From Acidobacteriota bacterium (GTDB taxonomy: Bacteria > Acidobacteriota > Terriglobia > Terriglobales > Acidobacteriaceae): a stretch of 64,000 nucleotides of DNA. Position numbers and translations under genes: made by a program. The notes below the pieces were generated by a model. That model did no database searches. It saw only the letters and a program-made list of their open reading frames with translations, and was not told where the DNA came from. Location of the stretch: contig JABCZL010000001.1 of assembly GCA_013289685.1 (NCBI GenBank), positions 375,838 to 439,837 of the forward strand. The letters are read 5' to 3'. Shown piece by piece: positions 18,529 to 33,518 of this stretch. Within the stretch, counting starts at the first letter, position 1. Every line of letters starts with the position of its first letter.

Positions 18529-19998
18529 TTGGCAGAATCCAATCCCAAGCAGGCAGCGGATAATATCGGGTTTCTCTCGCCAGGCGTTTCCATCGCCGAC
18601 GTGGAAGACCCCAACCGCCCGCGGCAGGTGATGGGCTTCCGTGATCTGGTGCTGTTCTATGTGATCACCGGCATCAGCCTGCGCTGGATCGCAACCGCGG
18701 CGGCGGCGGGGCCGAGTTCCATCGTAATCTGGATTGGCGCGTGGTTGTGTTTCTACACGCCGCTGGCGCTTTCTGTGCTGGAACTTTCGTCGCGCTATCC
18801 CAATGAGGGCGGCTTGTACGTATGGAGCAAGCGCGCCTTCGGAGATTTCTCGGGATTCATGGCGGCGTGGACGTACTGGACCAGCAATCTGCCTTACTTC
18901 CCTGCCGTACTGTATTTCGCGGCGAGCAATGTGCTGTTCGTGCGACAGGCAGCCTGGGAGCATCTTTCCGGCAACGCGACTTTCTATATTGTTTTTTCGC
19001 TGCTCACGCTGAGCGCGGCCACGCTGCTGAATATCGTCGGGCTCGACGTGGGCAAGTGGCTGCACAACGTCGGCGCGATTGCGATGTGGATTCCGGTGTG
19101 CATCGTCATCATCATGGGCTTTGTGGCGTGGCATCGCTACGGGTCGGCGACTTCGTTCACGCTGCATTCCATGATTCCCAGCACGCATCTCAACGACATC
19201 ATTTTCTGGTCCGTGCTGACATTTGCGTTTGGCGGGTGCGAGACGGCTTCCTTTATGGGGGAAGAAATCAAGAACGCGCGGCGCACCATCCCTCTGGCGC
19301 TATTGTCGGGTGGGATCACGGTTACGATTTGTTACATCCTGGGAACGGTTTGCGTGCTGCTGGCTCTGCCTTCGACCGAGGTCAACAGCCTGCAGGGACT
19401 GGTTCAGGCCGTGTCGAAGACGGCGACGCGCGTGGGATATCCCGGAGTATTGCCCTTGGCGGCGTTTCTGATTGCGCTGAGCAATATTGGCGCGGCCGGG
19501 GCTTACCTGGCGGCGGTGGCGCGGCTTCCTTTTGTTGCCGGGCTGGATCGCTTTTTGCCGCCGGCGTTTGGGACGCTGCATCCGCGATGGAAGACCCCAT
19601 GGGTTGCATTGCTGACGCAGTTTTTTCTGGGGGCCGTCTTCGTCTTTCTAGGGCAGGCGGGTACGAGCGTGAAAGGTGCCTACGATGTCCTGGTCAGCAT
19701 GGGCGTGATCACATACTTCATTCCGTATTTGTATTTGTTCGCCGCGATGATCAAGCTGCAGCGCGAACCTGCTGGGCCGGACGTGATTCGAGTGCCCGGG
19801 GGAAAAACCGTGGCGAAACTGGTCGCGACCGTGGGATTCCTGACTACGGGGCTGACCATCGCGCTGTCGCTGATTCCGCAGCCAGATGAGCCGAACAAGC
19901 CGCTGGCGATGTTCAAGGTGATCGGGGGGTGCGGAGCGCTGGTGGGGATTGGGGCTTGGATTTATTTCGCGGGCAAGCGGCGAGCTTTGCGTAGCTGA
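18529..19998 (+). CDS. APC-superfamily permease
   Basis: A 489-residue membrane transporter with about twelve helices. GFRDLVLFYVITGISLRWIATAAAAGPSS takes the place of the usual first-helix motif, and YPNEGGLYVWSKRAFGDFSGFMAAW is the conserved second block. It belongs to the glutamate/GABA-antiporter-like or amine permease branch of APC. The only reasonable start is a TTG at 18529, because the next Met (residue 36) is inside the first conserved block; no strong ribosome site is seen. It converges on the GcvT-like gene and could import the methylated amine used by the neighbouring flavoprotein cluster; that is speculation from context. Confidence 0.87.
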   Translation: MAESNPKQAADNIGFLSPGVSIADVEDPNRPRQVMGFRDLVLFYVITGISLRWIATAAAAGPSSIVIWIGAWLCFYTPLALSVLELSSRYPNEGGLYVWSKRAFGDFSGFMAAWTYWTSNLPYFPAVLYFAASNVLFVRQAAWEHLSGNATFYIVFSLLTLSAATLLNIVGLDVGKWLHNVGAIAMWIPVCIVIIMGFVAWHRYGSATSFTLHSMIPSTHLNDIIFWSVLTFAFGGCETASFMGEEIKNARRTIPLALLSGGITVTICYILGTVCVLLALPSTEVNSLQGLVQAVSKTATRVGYPGVLPLAAFLIALSNIGAAGAYLAAVARLPFVAGLDRFLPPAFGTLHPRWKTPWVALLTQFFLGAVFVFLGQAGTSVKGAYDVLVSMGVITYFIPYLYLFAAMIKLQREPAGPDVIRVPGGKTVAKLVATVGFLTTGLTIALSLIPQPDEPNKPLAMFKVIGGCGALVGIGAWIYFAGKRRALRS

Positions 19999-20004
19999 GT
20001 CCAT

Positions 20005-20132
20005 GTGGGGACAGCCGCCCTCAGCTGTCCAGGGGGGAAAGCTCGCTTGTTCATGCGAGTCAATCCAATAGCAGGGACCGAGAAAACCCAGCCGGGCTGC
20101 GCCCGGCGGACAGCCGAGGCGGCTGTCCCCGC
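20005..20132. repeat. Inverted pair of self-complementary GGACAGCCG elements
   Basis: The left arm (20005-20030) and right arm (20108-20132) are reverse complements with two or three mismatches. Each arm is also palindromic (GGACAGC, then GCTGTCC). The pair fills the gap between a rightward permease and a leftward GcvT-like gene and could act as a bidirectional terminator. A third, perfect 8-bp stem of the same core occurs at 58682, also between convergent genes. Confidence 0.8.
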
Positions 20133-20141
20133 ATAAACCAA

Positions 20142-21338
20142 CTACGCTGGCGTCGCGGTCTTCCGCGGCGGATTGAAGAACGGCAGGGTCGTCACCTTCA
20201 CGTTGGTCTCGAGGCGCATAGCCTCGATCGTGACTTCCATTTGCAGCGAAGTCCCCGGCTTCGCATATTCCGTCTCGACACTGGCTAGCGCGATCAATTT
20301 CTTCAGGACCGGCGACCAGCTTGTCGTGGTCGCCCTGCCGACTTGTTTCTCGCCCCAGTACACGGGGACCGCTACGCGCGAGGCCTGCGCGGGCGCCGCC
20401 GGAGTGAGGCCGTAGCGGTCGTAGAGTTGCTCGATATCGGTCCAATCAACTTCGAGGCCTACCAGTTGGCGGGGCACGCCATTCTTCGCGTCCTGCTCCA
20501 GGGCCCGTTTGCCGATGAAGTTCTCCTTATCGAGATGGACCATTTTGGCGAAGCCCAGTTCGTAGGGCGAAAACTTCTGCGAAGGGATCAGCGCCTTCTT
20601 TGAACTACTGTAGTCGACCTCGATGAGCAGCAGGCCGGCTTCCGTGCGGGCAACATCGAGCGCGAGCATACCGGCGGCGTGCAGATCGAATTGTTTGCCA
20701 GTCTCGGCGAGGGCGTCCCAGACTTTTACTGCGTCAGCCCACGGAATCCAGATCTCGTAGCCGAGGTCGCCGGTGTAACCGGTGCGCGAAATGTCGACAG
20801 GGACTCCGGCGATCTTGCCGCGGGTGACGCGGAAGTATTTCAGGTTGGCGATGTCGGCCTCGGCAACGGCCTTCAACAGCTTGGCTGAGGTCGGGCCCTG
20901 TAGGGCGAGCGCGGCGACCTTTTCGGAAATGTCTTCGACCTGCACGTCCATGTTCAGGCCGTTCTGGCGGAACCAGCGCAGGCTGGGATCGGCGGCGGTC
21001 CAGCGATAAATATTTTCATCGAGACGCGAGATGGTGCCGTCGTCAATCACCTTGCCCTCTTCGTCGCACCAGCAGCAATAAATCACCTGGCCCATTTTGA
21101 CTTTGTTGACGTCGCGGGTAATCACGCGGTTCACCAGGCGGGTCGCATCTTTGCCAGTGATCAGATATTTGTAGAGTGGCGAAATGTCGATGAGCGCGGC
21201 CGCGTTGCGAATGGCGTTGTACTCATGCTCGTGGTGAACTTCGTACACGCTGACCGTGTAGTAGCCGGACCATTCGCGGTAGTTCAGGCTGTGACAAAGC
21301 GGAAAAGTTCTCTCGTGAAATGCTGTTCCAATAGGCAA
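20142..21338 (-). CDS. GcvT-like aminomethyltransferase (folate-binding) protein
   Basis: A 398-residue GcvT-family protein. YTVSVYEVHHEHEYNAIRNAAALIDISPLYKYLITGKDA is the N-terminal block, LALQGPTSAKLL and RTGYTGDLGYEIW carry the family core with the folate-binding Glu region, and DVARTEAGLLL follows. The C-terminal domain is present. The length is typical of stand-alone T proteins, but the glycine cleavage P and H genes are not nearby. It may instead take methyl or formaldehyde units from a methylated amine onto tetrahydrofolate. The start is a TTG with GAGG upstream. Its promoter region is shared with the divergent flavoprotein genes and is interrupted by a GIY-YIG element. Confidence 0.87.
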   Translation of the reverse strand: MPIGTAFHERTFPLCHSLNYREWSGYYTVSVYEVHHEHEYNAIRNAAALIDISPLYKYLITGKDATRLVNRVITRDVNKVKMGQVIYCCWCDEEGKVIDDGTISRLDENIYRWTAADPSLRWFRQNGLNMDVQVEDISEKVAALALQGPTSAKLLKAVAEADIANLKYFRVTRGKIAGVPVDISRTGYTGDLGYEIWIPWADAVKVWDALAETGKQFDLHAAGMLALDVARTEAGLLLIEVDYSSSKKALIPSQKFSPYELGFAKMVHLDKENFIGKRALEQDAKNGVPRQLVGLEVDWTDIEQLYDRYGLTPAAPAQASRVAVPVYWGEKQVGRATTTSWSPVLKKLIALASVETEYAKPGTSLQMEVTIEAMRLETNVKVTTLPFFNPPRKTATPA

Positions 21339-21403
21339 AGTGATGACCTCGAATTGAAGGAAGACGCCGAAGCCGGATTATACCTCGGCGCTCTTTTCGA
21401 ATG

Positions 21404-21877
21404 CGTCATCCCGAAGGCCCGCGTTTTTTCCAGCGGGCCGAGGGATCTCCCTGCACGAACATGTTCATCCGTCACAGACAACCCGAGGTCGAATGGGCTA
21501 AAACAGGGTCATGTCGAAGCAATTTTTCGTTTACATCATGACCAACGGCCCCAAAATCCGCTGTCCTCTATACGGGGATAACCGGCAACCTCCGACGTCG
21601 AGTTTGGCAGCACAAGAACAAGTGCTATCCAGGCTTCACCAGCCGCTATAACCTTCATCAGTTCGTCTACTACGAAAGCTTCGTCTACCCAGACGCCGCC
21701 ATTAACCGCGAGAAGGAAATCAAAGGTTGGCGGCGCAGCAAGAAGATTGCTCTCATCGAGTCAATGAATGCACGCTGGGAGCACTTGGCGAAGGATTGGC
21801 AGGACATGTACAAACCCGCAGCCGATTTGCAGGGAGATCCCTCGGCCCGCTCAAGAACGCGGGCCTTCGGGATGACG
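21404..21877. mobile_element. GIY-YIG relic flanked by ~50-bp inverted repeats
   Basis: The left arm 21404-21455 and the right arm 21828-21877 are near-perfect reverse complements, beginning CGTCATCCCGAAGGCCCGCG on the left and ending with its complement on the right. Each arm is itself hairpin-like (GGCCCGCG, then CGCGGGCC or similar). A GIY-YIG nuclease reading frame lies exactly between them. The whole unit is about 474 bp and sits in the divergent promoter region of the GcvT-like and flavoprotein genes. The arrangement resembles a small nuclease-plus-palindrome mobile unit; mobility is inferred. Confidence 0.7.
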
Positions 21878-21931
21878 TCAGCCCGTCGGGGCCGAGGCAG
21901 AAGAACTCGCTGGAGACTTGGCGGCCCTTGA
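21511..21931 (+). pseudogene. GIY-YIG endonuclease, frameshifted
   Basis: From the ATG at 21511 the frame reads SKQFFVYIMTNGPK. One base later, in the next frame, it continues AVLYTGITGNLRRRVWQH and then YNLHQFVYYESFVYPDAAINRE, KEIKGWRRSKKIALIESMN, up to about 21827. These are the GIY-YIG motifs (YIM, LYTG), the catalytic Arg and Glu regions, and the usual UvrC-like small nuclease length near 100 residues. The shift is explained by one extra A in the AAAA run at 21553-21556. Downstream the frame reads through the right inverted repeat to TGA at 21931. It is either inactive or carries a sequencing error in the run. Confidence 0.75.
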
Positions 21932-22175
21932 GAGCTGTCAGGCCGACAGATCGCTTTTGTGCAGACAAAAAACCCGTGTTCCCGATAGAATGGCACTTCG
22001 ACTTCCGGTCGCCTATGCGCATGTTCATGCCCAGTTTGTGCAGCATCCTCCGCAGCTGGACCGTTCTTCCCAGCGGGCTCTGATCTTTCTTTCGCCTGTT
22101 TCCTCGCGCGAGTATCATTACGTTTCTAATCGGCACATACAAATCAGCAGGCGAACAGCTAAAGGCTAAGAGCTT

Positions 22176-23768
22176 ATGGCTAACTCATACGACGTAATCG
22201 TAATTGGCGGCGGCCACAACGGTTTGGTCAACGCCGCCTACCTTGCAAAAGCCGGCAAGAAAGTGCTGGTGCTGGAACGGCGTCATGTGCTCGGCGGCGC
22301 GGCCTGCACGGAAGAAATCTTCCCAGGATTTAAGTTCTCAGTCTGCTCGTATGTCGTGTCGCTGCTGCGGCCCGAGATTATCCGCGATCTCGATCTTCCC
22401 CGCCATGGACTGGAGATTCTTCCGCTCGATGGAACGTTTACGCCCATGCCCAGCGGCGATTATCTGTGGCGCGTGAATGATCACGGCAAGACGCATCGCG
22501 AGATTGCCCGCCATTCGCGGGTCGACGCCGAAGCCTACGACGAATTCGGCAAGGCGATGCAGGCCATGTGCCGCTTCGTGAAGCCGATTCTCAGCATGGT
22601 GCCCCCGGACCCGACGACTCTGAATCCGCGAGAACTGATGAAGCTGTTGTTCATCGGACGGCGATTTCAGGGGATGTCGAGCTACGACAAATACAATCAA
22701 GTCCAGCTTATGACGATGTCCGCCATTGATTTTCTCGATCAGTGGTTCGAGACCGATGTGCTCAAAGCGACGATGTCCGCCTCGGGAATTATTGGAACGT
22801 TTCTGGGCGTGCGCTCTCCGGGAACCGCGTACGTGCTGCTGCATCACTATATGGGAGAGATCGACGGCGCATTCCGCGCCTGGGGATTTGCGCGCGGCGG
22901 CACGGGAGCGATTTCGAATGCCATCGCCGATGCGGCTCGCGAGGCAGGCGTGGAGATCCGCACCCAGTCTGGCATTTCGCAGATTATCGTGAAGAATGGC
23001 AAGGCGAAAGGCGTGGTCCTGTCGAACGGCGACGAAGTCTACGCGCATGTGATTTCGTCCAGCGTCGATCCGCGGCTGACGTTTACGAAGTTCATTGAGG
23101 CGCAGCATCTGCCGGGCGATTTTCTCGATGACGTGAACCGCTACAAGTTCCGCGGTTCTTCCGGCAAGGTCAACATGGCGCTGGATGGGTTGCCGAACTT
23201 CAAGTGTATGCCCGGGCCGGGAGCGCATTTGCGCGGCGCAATTTCCATCTCGCCTTCGGTCGAGTACATGGAGCGGGCATATGACGACGCGAAGTACGGC
23301 AACTTCTCGCGGCATCCCTACATTGACATGGTCATTCCGTCGCTGACCGATCCTTCGGTTGCGCCTCCCGGAAAGCATGTGCTGTCGTGCTTCGTGCAAT
23401 ACGCGCCTTACAAGTTGCGGCCTGGGCTTACATGGGATGATCAAAAGGAGGCCTTCGGCGACACCGTGGTGAACACGATTGCGGAATACGCGCCGAACAT
23501 CAAGGACATCATCCTTCACAAGCAGGTGATCACTCCGCTCGATCTCGAGCGAGAGTGGGGACTGAGCGAGGGCAACATTTTCCAGGGCGAGCTTTCGCTG
23601 GAGCAGCTGTTCTTTCTGCGTCCTGTGCCGGGCTGGGCACAGTACCGCACGCCCATCAAGAACCTTTATATGTGCGGATCGGCGACCCATCCGGGCGGCG
23701 GCATCATGGGCGCGAACGGGCGGCTGGCGGCGCTGGAGATTCTGAAAGACATCAAGGGAGCGGCATAG
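22176..23768 (+). CDS. CrtI/PYROXD2-like FAD-dependent oxidoreductase 1
   Basis: A 530-residue flavoprotein. The N-terminal dinucleotide motif VIVIGGGHNGLVNAAYLAKAGKKVLVLE (residues 7-34) is followed by RHVLGGAACTEE. A C-terminal FAD motif reads NLYMCGSATHPGGGIMGANGRLAA. This is the phytoene desaturase-like family, with HNG typical of the PYROXD2 branch and not of true carotenoid enzymes, and no other carotenoid gene is near. The next gene is a paralogue one base downstream. The pair may form a heteromer. Context with GcvT-like and PurU suggests oxidation of an N-methyl compound, but this is not shown by the sequence. Confidence 0.87.
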   Translation: MANSYDVIVIGGGHNGLVNAAYLAKAGKKVLVLERRHVLGGAACTEEIFPGFKFSVCSYVVSLLRPEIIRDLDLPRHGLEILPLDGTFTPMPSGDYLWRVNDHGKTHREIARHSRVDAEAYDEFGKAMQAMCRFVKPILSMVPPDPTTLNPRELMKLLFIGRRFQGMSSYDKYNQVQLMTMSAIDFLDQWFETDVLKATMSASGIIGTFLGVRSPGTAYVLLHHYMGEIDGAFRAWGFARGGTGAISNAIADAAREAGVEIRTQSGISQIIVKNGKAKGVVLSNGDEVYAHVISSSVDPRLTFTKFIEAQHLPGDFLDDVNRYKFRGSSGKVNMALDGLPNFKCMPGPGAHLRGAISISPSVEYMERAYDDAKYGNFSRHPYIDMVIPSLTDPSVAPPGKHVLSCFVQYAPYKLRPGLTWDDQKEAFGDTVVNTIAEYAPNIKDIILHKQVITPLDLEREWGLSEGNIFQGELSLEQLFFLRPVPGWAQYRTPIKNLYMCGSATHPGGGIMGANGRLAALEILKDIKGAA

Positions 23769-23769
23769 C

Positions 23770-25353
23770 ATGTCTCAGGCGCGCGATATCGTCATTATTG
23801 GTGGCGGCCACAACGGGCTGGTCACCGCGTTCTACCTGGCCAAGGCAGGATTCAAGCCGCTGGTACTGGAGCGCAACGCGCAGGTCGGCGGCGCCGCTGT
23901 CACCGATGAATTTCATCCCGGGTTTCGCTGTTCGACGTTGGCGCATACGGCGGGGCCGATTCTGCCTAGCATTCTCGCCGATATGCAACTGGAGAAACAC
24001 GGACTCAGACTGATGACGCCGGATGTTTGCGTGACCGCGCTCTCGCCCGATGGGCGCGCGCTTTCGCTCTACCAGGATGCGGCCAAGTCAGCGCAGGAAA
24101 TCGCAGCCTTCTCGCAGAGGGATGCGGTGAAGTATCCGGAGTTCGAGCAATCGCTGGGGAAGATCAGCAAAGTTATCGGCGAAGCGCTGGCGACCACGCC
24201 GCCGGACATCGACCATCCCAGCAGTGGCGATTTGTGGAGCATGTTGAAGACGGGGCGTGCGATCCGCAAGCTGGGCAAAAAAGATATGTTCCGACTGCTG
24301 CGCTGGGGGCCGATGGCGGTGGCCGATCTCGCGTCGGAATATTTTGAAACGGAGCTGCTGCGGGCGGTGATCGCTGCGCGCGGCGTGTTTGGGACCTTTC
24401 TTGGTCCGTGGTCGGCGGGAAGCGCGCTTGTCTTGCTGATCCGCGCGGCGGCAGATCCCCATCCCGCGGGCTCGGCGACGTTCGCTGCGGGAGGCATGGG
24501 TACGGTTACGCAGGCTATGGCGGCGGCGGCGCAGGCCGCGGGCGCGGAGATTCGCACGGGCGCCGAGGTCATTGAGATTCATGTACAGAACGGGGTCGCC
24601 ACGGGCGTGCTGCTCTCGACGGGCGAAGAGATTCTGGCCAAAGCGATCATCTCGAACGCAGACCCGAAGCGCACGTTGCTCAAGCTGACCGACCCCACGC
24701 ATCTCTCGCCGGATTTCGTGCAGAAGTTGCAGCATTACCGCGGGAACGGGACCGTCGCGAAGGTGAACCTTGCGCTCTCCGGGCTGCCGAAGTTCACTGC
24801 ACTCAAGAATGGCGACGCGAGCGCGCTCAAGGGGCGCATTCATATTGGCCATGAGATTGACTATCTGGAACGGGCGTTCGACGAATCCAAATACGGCAAC
24901 TTCTCACGCCAGCCGTATCTGGAAGCCACGATTCCGTCGCTGACCGACCCGACGCTGGCGCCCGAAGGCAAGCACGTGATGTCGATTTACATGCAGTACG
25001 CGCCGTATAAGCTGAAGGGCGATTGGGAACAGGAGCGCAACGCACTTGGCCAGACGGTGGTTGGGACGCTGGCGCAGTATGCGCCGAATCTGCCGGAACT
25101 GATTCTGACGCACAAGATCATTACGCCGCACGATCTGGAAGAAAAGTACGGGCTGACCGGGGGACAGATTTTTCACGGGGATCTGGCGCTTGACCAGTTC
25201 TTCACCATGCGTCCGCTGCTCGACTGGGCGCGGTACCGAACGCCGATTCAGAATTTGTATTTGTGCGGGAGCGGGACGCATCCGGGAGCGGGCCTGACCG
25301 GCGGATCGGGCGCGAATGCGGCGCGCGAGATTTTGAAGGAACTGAAGAAGTAG
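23770..25353 (+). CDS. CrtI/PYROXD2-like FAD-dependent oxidoreductase 2
   Basis: A 527-residue paralogue of the preceding gene, similar over the full length: IVIIGGGHNGLVTAFYLAKAG at the N-terminus, YGNFSRQPYLEATIPSLTDP in the middle, and NLYLCGSGTHPGAGLTGGSGANAA at the C-terminus. The ATG lies one base after the TAG of the first gene, so translation is probably coupled and the subunits made in equal amounts. The block after the FAD motif differs between the two (ARDI.. and TDEFHPGFRCSTLAHTAGP), which fits different roles for the two subunits. No membrane anchor is seen. Confidence 0.87.
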   Translation: MSQARDIVIIGGGHNGLVTAFYLAKAGFKPLVLERNAQVGGAAVTDEFHPGFRCSTLAHTAGPILPSILADMQLEKHGLRLMTPDVCVTALSPDGRALSLYQDAAKSAQEIAAFSQRDAVKYPEFEQSLGKISKVIGEALATTPPDIDHPSSGDLWSMLKTGRAIRKLGKKDMFRLLRWGPMAVADLASEYFETELLRAVIAARGVFGTFLGPWSAGSALVLLIRAAADPHPAGSATFAAGGMGTVTQAMAAAAQAAGAEIRTGAEVIEIHVQNGVATGVLLSTGEEILAKAIISNADPKRTLLKLTDPTHLSPDFVQKLQHYRGNGTVAKVNLALSGLPKFTALKNGDASALKGRIHIGHEIDYLERAFDESKYGNFSRQPYLEATIPSLTDPTLAPEGKHVMSIYMQYAPYKLKGDWEQERNALGQTVVGTLAQYAPNLPELILTHKIITPHDLEEKYGLTGGQIFHGDLALDQFFTMRPLLDWARYRTPIQNLYLCGSGTHPGAGLTGGSGANAAREILKELKK

Positions 25354-33457: not shown

Positions 33458-33518
33458 GTCATCCTGAGCGAAGCATCAGCTTCGCAAAGCGAAGGTGATG
33501 CGCAGTCGAAGGACCCCG
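33458..33518. repeat. REP-like palindrome (TCATCCTGAGCG type)
   Basis: A 61-bp element beginning GTCATCCTGAGCGAAGC and ending AAGGACCCCGCG. Its centre is a hairpin GCATCA-GCTTCGC-AAA-GCGAAGG-TGATGC. The ends resemble the arms of the GIY-YIG element at 21404 in design (TCATCC near one end, AGGA/AGGGA near the other). It lies between mrdA and rodA. Confidence 0.65.

Follow-up and report, generated by a model that had tools for sequence, protein, structure and literature searches.

A probable decaying REP-nuclease unit in an Acidobacteriota genome, and the pairing of related GIY-YIG nuclease genes with hairpin repeats across bacteria

Introduction

Few repeats in bacteria are commoner than REPs, and an enzyme is known for their GTAG class, whereas none has been found for the CGTC class (PMC3733652). 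As described by Di Nocera, De Gregorio and Rocco (2013, PMC3733652), CGTC REPs carry a CGTC (or TGTC) tag and a stem whose first pairs are A-T and T-A, and they occur as outward-facing dimers in many copies; the stem has 8-9 bp, the loop 4-5 nt, and the tail is CCA. They are not associated with transposase genes, and what moves them was asked in the same work. The DNA analysed here, a stretch of 64,000 nucleotides from an Acidobacteriota bacterium which we call the window, puts this question at a single site: a broken gene for a GIY-YIG nuclease is found with two inverted hairpins, each bearing a CGTC tag. Do the gene and the hairpins belong together, and is the site one case among many?

A possible relative of the enzyme is Ssn, a group of nucleases within the GIY-YIG superfamily that are reported to cut single strands at specific sites (Chenal et al., Nat Commun 2025). 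That study is reported to concern the cutting of ssDNA and natural transformation; the Neisseria enzyme reportedly has a target that recurs in hundreds of copies, and homologues of the enzyme are reported to differ in specificity. By inference we place the enzyme of the window's clade with Ssn, as a small GIY-YIG nuclease cutting its cognate sequence in single-stranded form. Its catalysis is inferred from sequence, and the ssDNA substrate is assigned by analogy with what is reported for Ssn. The reading that we consider likely is that the window holds one decaying REP-nuclease unit, in which a single-domain nuclease of the Ssn kind lies within inverted copies of its cognate REP hairpin; cleavage and the mode of spread are inferred.

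The unit and its surroundings

The unit occupies positions 21404-21877 of the window (474 bp) and consists of an arm, a GIY-YIG gene and an inverted copy of the arm. On the plus strand, the left arm (21404..21455) starts with the tag CGTC at 21404-21407 and continues with a hairpin at 21408-21446 and the tail CTCCCTGCA; the hairpin has a foot ATCCC/GGGAT, an internal loop of the GA/GA type and an upper stem GGCCCGC/GCGGGCC, and the order of the fold is GTC-ATCCC-(GA)-GGCCCGC-loop-GCGGGCC-GA-GGGAT-CT. The right arm (21828..21877, minus strand) is an inverted copy with identical tag and foot. One alignment of the two arms gives two blocks without gaps, 25 nt at 96% and 24 nt at 100%, and a second gives 92% identity over bases 1-52 of the query. 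Folded with DNA parameters, both arms form hairpins, of -12.7 and -12.9 kcal/mol, and 7 of 200 and 5 of 200 shuffled sequences, respectively, fold equally well; each arm has an unpaired CGTC tag and a foot closed by A and T.

The gene (21511..21931, plus strand) is homologous to its clade over 21548-21802 and is split by a single frameshift, near 21545-21560. A Pfam search of the window stretch matched PF01541 (GIY-YIG) to the second frame with an E value of 2.2e-10, the sole Pfam domain found there. The catalytic set of the GIY-YIG domain comprises Tyr, Tyr, Arg, Glu and Asn. In our alignment Y4, Y14, R24, E61 and N80 are invariant across 19 family rows, and the window copy keeps the matching residues, divided between two frames. 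Because of the single frameshift, this copy is probably no longer active, a judgement made from sequence alone; the frameshift is either young or an assembly error. The initial annotation had described a GIY-YIG relic boxed by inverted repeats of about 50 nt, each able to form a hairpin, and alignment, folding and Pfam bear this out. It had also placed the reading frame exactly between the arms, which failed: the second frame crosses the right arm and reaches its stop at 21931.

The location claimed, a divergent intergenic region, held. To the left is a GcvT-like gene (20142..21338, minus strand; PF01571, E 1e-59) and to the right a gene (22176..23768, plus strand) that we take to be FAD oxidoreductase-like, named from its sequence without a database search; both served for synteny. 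No Rfam families were found in window positions 19000-24000. A further repeat of this type, GTCATCCTGAGCG ... CAGTCGAAGGACC, is located at 33458..33515 (plus strand), with neither gene nor partner arm in the window; as had been noted, it is a similar hairpin standing alone, and its tip is the only one in the window beyond those of the two arms. For GTCATYCYGA this makes 3 occurrences, whereas 100 shuffles average 0.69 and a count of 3 is attained in 2 of them.

Two smaller elements accompany the site. Between the left arm and the gene lies the motif TTCATCCGTCACAGACAAC (21464..21482, plus strand). The motif TTCATTCGTCACAGACACC takes this place in 3 of the 5 own-genome members and 5 of the 19 congener members; its carriers besides the window's own copy (L026, L037, L034, L038, L030, L035 and L032) share it despite differing arms and proteins. 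It was seen upstream of the gene in none of the 35 loci of the phylum-wide set and none of the 80 of the all-phyla set. A promoter, an operator or a second recognition site are all conceivable. Ahead of the FAD oxidoreductase-like gene, at 22015-22083 (plus strand), runs a short frame, MRMFMPSLCSILRSWTVLPSGL and a stop, whose ending SW(T/S)VLPSGL plus stop, or a close form of it, recurs in 21 of 21 syntenic congeners; it may resemble a conserved leader or arrest peptide, again judged from sequence alone.

Repeats and nuclease genes in the same genome

The window's own genome (6.85 Mb in 48 contigs) contains 324 copies of GTCATCCYGA against 12 of the reversed pattern used as a control, so the arms are not confined to the window. 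Among the first 100 tip places listed, 22 neighbouring tips lie no more than 250 bp apart, and 22 of these 22 pairs face outward, at a spacing of 64-220 bp. PF01541 gives 8 matches over the cut-off and 2 below it. Five of the ten are small proteins of one clade, and 5 of 5 have GTCATYCYG tips facing outward on their flanks. The remaining five, which include UvrC and the two matches under the cut-off, lie between paired tips in 0 of 5 cases. Two of the five clade members are broken, the window copy by its frameshift and L007 by a stop codon.

Linkage of gene and repeat across bacteria

Relatives were gathered from the genus, from 197 genomes of the phylum, from a scan of 84,980 genomes across all phyla (the 80 best loci out of at least 570) and from plasmid records. 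In the genus set, 19 of 22 non-own matches were kept; those dropped were L031, which lies at the end of a contig, L025, a weak match from another family, and L036, the remaining half of a split gene. The all-phyla set counts 77 of its 80 loci, three being left out for a flank below 200 bases, and the plasmid set 15 of the 16 loci fetched from 35 matching records. The plasmid locus dropped (L086, from Methylobacterium, YhbQ-like) has an inverted repeat on its flanks, with a score of 18, and this counts against the favoured reading. The criteria were fixed for all sets: outward tips on both flanks, or an inverted repeat scoring at least 13, with windows shifted by 700 bp as controls; the plasmid set has no control windows. 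The sets are not independent, as some loci are one site in sister species.

Outward tips on both flanks were found at 5/5 own-genome, 15/19 genus, 25/35 phylum, 54/77 all-phyla and 9/15 plasmid loci, which pools to 108 of 151 loci against 6 of 120 shifted windows. The inverted-repeat criterion is also met by 108 of 151 loci, against 2 of 120 shifted windows, and an independent count on the 80 all-phyla loci, with slightly different windows, gave 46/80 against 0/62. Neither criterion is met at 20 of the 151 loci, and these count against the favoured reading. Weak GIY-YIG loci of the phylum (nine matches giving eight loci, seven of them usable) meet either criterion in 2/7 cases against 1/7 shifted windows. 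One rival reading is chance, that is, a GIY-YIG fragment beside unrelated dyads, and it can point to REP-like tips being common in the genome. It is all but excluded by the loci that meet either criterion, 131 of 151 against 8 of 120 shifted windows, and by the two permutation tests given below.

According to their record titles, the 80 best loci span more than 20 phylum-level groups, including Cyanobacteria, Chloroflexi, Planctomycetota, Bacteroidota, Bacillota, Nitrospirae, Spirochaetes and several candidate phyla. Thirteen of their genomes, from other groups, were picked since their arms fit the pattern; they hold 9-184 copies of the tip GTCATYCYGAG against 0-4 of the control, with at least 33 copies in 11 of the 13. 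The N. gonorrhoeae homologue is bordered by CCGTCATTCCCGCGCAGGCGGGAATC on each side, and the repeat beside the Neisseria and rhizobial homologues is canonical, with the same foot logic as the window arm, GTC-AT...AT. The window unit is one case of a general pairing of gene and repeat. The initial annotation had supposed that REP-like sequences are tied to a GIY-YIG enzyme as REPs are to RAYTs, a view that arms occurring only here, or genes never linked to arms, would have refuted; neither outcome was seen, and the linkage is supported, while spreading by the nuclease is inferred. As a separate observation, a clade member on a Planktothrix plasmid (L073) has a type IIL restriction-modification gene on one side and the DISARM gene drmA on the other.

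Repeat type and nuclease type

Each nuclease type has its own repeat type. A Mantel test on 39 of 59 phylum loci (those with paired arms and a protein of at least 80 aa, four related-site pairs being excluded) shows that arm similarity tracks protein similarity, with a Spearman r of 0.38 and 0 of 1000 permutations as high. By eye, the arms of one clade read GTCATTCCG...GAGGAAYCT, those of another GTCATCTCGA...GAGAGAYC and those of the window's clade GTCATCCCGA...GAGGGATCT. The foot covaries: the three bases after GTCAT are matched by their complement before AT (GTC-AT-xyz ... complement-AT). Among tip sites close to genes, those keeping this pairing number 152 of 244 across all phyla (permuted mean 37.6, largest 54 in 1000 draws), 53 of 147 in the phylum set (mean 15.2, largest 25) and 28 of 36 in the plasmid set (mean 8.5, largest 19); in outer-window sites the figure is 28 of 195. 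On a nuclease tree of 104 of 154 loci (foot found and protein of at least 75 aa), the foot triplet changes 46 times against 68.1 times with shuffled labels, and 0 of 200 shuffles are as low, though the tree rests on few columns and its forks are mostly weak. The triplet TGC groups nucleases of Cyanobacteria, Chloroflexi, Bacillota, Spirochaetota and others, from which we infer that nuclease and repeat seem to travel together.

These results bear on a second rival, in which the REPs belong to an HUH transposase (RAYT/TnpA_REP) and the GIY-YIG genes are mere passengers between them. For it, GTAG-type REPs are linked to RAYTs (PMC3733652), and the window's own genome holds 4 Y1_Tnp matches. Against it, none of the 17 Y1_Tnp loci of three genomes (G000, G199 and G183) is bracketed by outward GTCA tips, 6 have such a tip on one side, and 16 of the 17 have another inverted repeat of their own; moreover, arm type follows GIY-YIG type in the Mantel and tree tests, which argues against ownership by RAYTs. 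We regard this explanation as very unlikely, and the separate ends imply that both REP-like systems coexist in the three genomes. The own inverted repeats of these 16 of 17 Y1_Tnp genes (L258-L274) are long, and they fit the TIR-associated transposases of PMC3733652.

Presence, absence and decay at fixed sites

Among 45 genomes of the genus, the GcvT-like neighbour was found in 38; 30 loci were read, of which 21 are syntenic through the FAD gene. Three were dropped with the FAD motif more than 1000 bp off (G234, G007 and G224), and the others lacked the motif or their contig ended. At the window site the gene is present in 6 of the 21 (G000, G001, G003, G011, G225 and G247), reversed in G003 and G247; a 3' gene remnant or arm pieces alone are left in 2 (G223 and G002), repeats without the gene in 4 (pairs in G230, G233 and G009, a single one in G005), and no tip in 9, of which G218 and G238 may by eye hold scars. 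These states are scattered over the tree of the GcvT-like neighbour gene. Six genomes appear by eye to have a common left boundary at this site, so the pattern is in part an old insertion followed by losses; the other copies may be separate insertions. Scatter of this kind would also be compatible with an old insertion and repeated loss throughout, which counts against the favoured reading. The copies at the site have dN of 0.10-0.16 and dS of 1.4-3.2, the latter saturated in 2 of 6 pairs, and the low dN relative to dS indicates that the protein has been under strong purifying selection in the sister copies.

A second site is found in Azospirillum lipoferum 4B, where a REP pair, the gene and another REP pair lie between sufB and sufC in 617 bp. 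The unit is absent there in all five relatives examined (A. ramasamyi, B510, A. oryzae, A. thermophilum and A. argentinense), and in the four annotated unit-free records the sufB-sufC gap measures 55-129 bp. No target-site duplication, the mark of an insertion sequence, and no exact junction is visible by eye, either in A. lipoferum or at the window site, a negative limited by the strong divergence of these junctions; Rhizobium plasmids compared for a unit-free site gave no usable case, and no second closely related Novosphingobium record was found for a site comparison. The expectation of sites without the unit in relatives is met at both places. Units are present and absent at fixed sites, and gene copies at the window site decay to short repeat pairs.

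Such sites also bear on strict homing, the explanation in which the nuclease gene invades pre-existing REP pairs by cleavage and gene conversion, the pairs arising otherwise. GIY-YIG enzymes are frequently homing nucleases (PMC1564403), the gene is always inside a pair, and its flipped orientation in 2 of 6 gene-bearing congeners at the window site fits as well. Against this, there is no NUMOD and no intron, and the NCBIfam model of a group I intron endonuclease, TIGR01453, scores 17-18 bits in three relatives against a cut-off of 56. The gene remnants between the arms of G002 and G223 show that gene-free pairs can come about by deletion, the unit-free Azospirillum sites lean against strict homing, and strict homing leaves the origin of REP pairs unexplained. 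It remains a possibility.

Repeats without the gene

The repeats are present in tens to hundreds of copies, mostly without a gene. In the survey of 197 phylum genomes, 21 have a strong match and 168 none, and 8 with weak YhbQ-like matches (8-29 tips each) were set aside from the comparison. At least 30 tips are found in 17 of the 21 gene-bearing genomes against 9 of the 168 without the gene (Fisher p 2e-14); within the window's family, with 14 genomes carrying the gene and 8 lacking it, the difference is weaker (p 0.019).

The nine tip-rich genomes without the gene (G090, G025, G127, G167, G103, G211, G196, G214 and G042) count against the favoured reading: G090 has 745 tips and the other eight have 32-122. 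A wider profile gave distant matches in only 2 of the 9, at three loci not flanked by tips, and a PF01541 search of 5 of the 9 gave one match each, always in a UvrC-sized frame of 599-904 aa. In G090 neither a clade nuclease (only the UvrC-sized GIY-YIG match) nor a Y1_Tnp match was found. Such genomes imply that the repeats can persist, and perhaps grow, without a nuclease of the GIY-YIG clade; G090 is unexplained. Its tips, of the form GTCATYCYGAG in a 3.1 Mb genome of the same phylum, are frequently clustered (e.g. L275-L286).

A further rival holds that the repeats serve the host, as terminators, RNA hairpins or in supercoiling, and that the nuclease only uses them as a recognition site, for example in tuning the uptake of foreign DNA, without any movement. 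In its favour, REPs are reported chiefly downstream of genes, and their transcription is plausible (PMC3733652), Ssn reportedly modulates natural transformation in Neisseria (Chenal et al. 2025), and G090 retains its many tips without the gene. Against a role for the host alone stand units found in one species and absent from relatives at the same site, the range of 0-7 gene copies per genome within one genus, and nuclease clades that cross phyla along with the foot type. We consider it unlikely.

Relation to known systems

The enzyme resembles Ssn in its single small GIY-YIG domain, its catalytic set and a cognate sequence repeated through the genome (324 against 12 tips). What is described here, on sequence evidence, is the coming and going of repeat-boxed units, the identity of the repeats with CGTC REPs and the presence of several parallel types per genome; we do not assert that these are absent from Chenal et al. 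2025. As in CGTC REPs, both window arms read CGTC-AT...AT, and the rhizobial, Azospirillum and Neisseria arms are canonical. The window arms differ in their two-storey stem of 5 + 7 bp with an internal loop, a loop of 8-10 nt and a tail CTCCC rather than CCA, and on account of these mismatches we call them CGTC-like and not members of the CGTC REPs. The likeness to the REPtrons of RAYT/TnpA_REP lies in a nuclease gene flanked by inverted hairpin repeats, with orphan copies filling the genome as pairs; the difference is that the window gene encodes a GIY-YIG and not an HUH tyrosine enzyme, and the HUH genes of three genomes carry other inverted repeats. UPF0213/YhbQ GIY-YIG proteins have a domain of similar size, and PDB 1zg2 and 1ywl are the nearest solved sequences; of eight such loci fetched from the phylum, seven were usable and most of these are without arms, and three further distant matches have none.

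Other assignments found no support. By family models the candidate of a homing endonuclease is unsupported, with no NUMOD and the intron endonuclease model far under its cut-off. No defence-system model matched the one protein scanned, and a search for a phage origin gave 12 phage records, at 36-43% identity in the 10 listed, with no close relative. In the open-access literature searched, no paper mentioned GIY-YIG together with 'repetitive extragenic palindromic' or dRS3, and co-mentions of GIY-YIG and 'repin' were one or two word occurrences in restriction-enzyme papers; most subscription papers lie outside such a search, which makes it weak evidence of novelty. Ssn and CGTC REPs are already known, and linking the nuclease clade to CGTC-like REPs may be new as far as this literature can tell.

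Proposed mechanism and meaning

In the favoured reading of a REP-nuclease unit, the nuclease would recognise the hairpin and its GTC tag once the DNA is single-stranded, during replication or DNA uptake, and would nick near the foot of the hairpin. Repair and copying of the nicked sites would spread the arms, with or without the gene, and loss of the gene would leave REP pairs behind. The ends may be joined by host functions, a step proposed because the GIY-YIG reaction is DNA hydrolysis and strand transfer by these enzymes is not known. A fixed GTC tag and an AT-closed foot with a covarying triplet are what an enzyme that reads hairpins would be predicted to select. Spread may take place by homing into REP pairs, by insertion at new sites or by both.

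A bolder reading, towards which we lean only slightly, is that the GTC-AT hairpin repeats of very many bacteria (CGTC REPs, dRS3-like and TCATTCTGAG-type repeats) and the GIY-YIG clade together make up one class of selfish units that mobilise REPs, the second such class and independent of HUH enzymes. Its ssDNA hairpin nuclease and the foot triplet would diversify together, and this nuclease would be the missing enzyme of the CGTC REPs.

The nuclease type predicts the repeat type across phyla, foot triplet and nuclease type travelling together, and the result is a ready set of natural pairs of nuclease and hairpin with which changes in specificity could be tested. The same set lets one ask whether a hydrolytic nuclease, and not a transposase, can spread DNA. 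The pairing across so many groups suggests that a large class of repeats, thought to lack a partner enzyme, has one of the GIY-YIG type.
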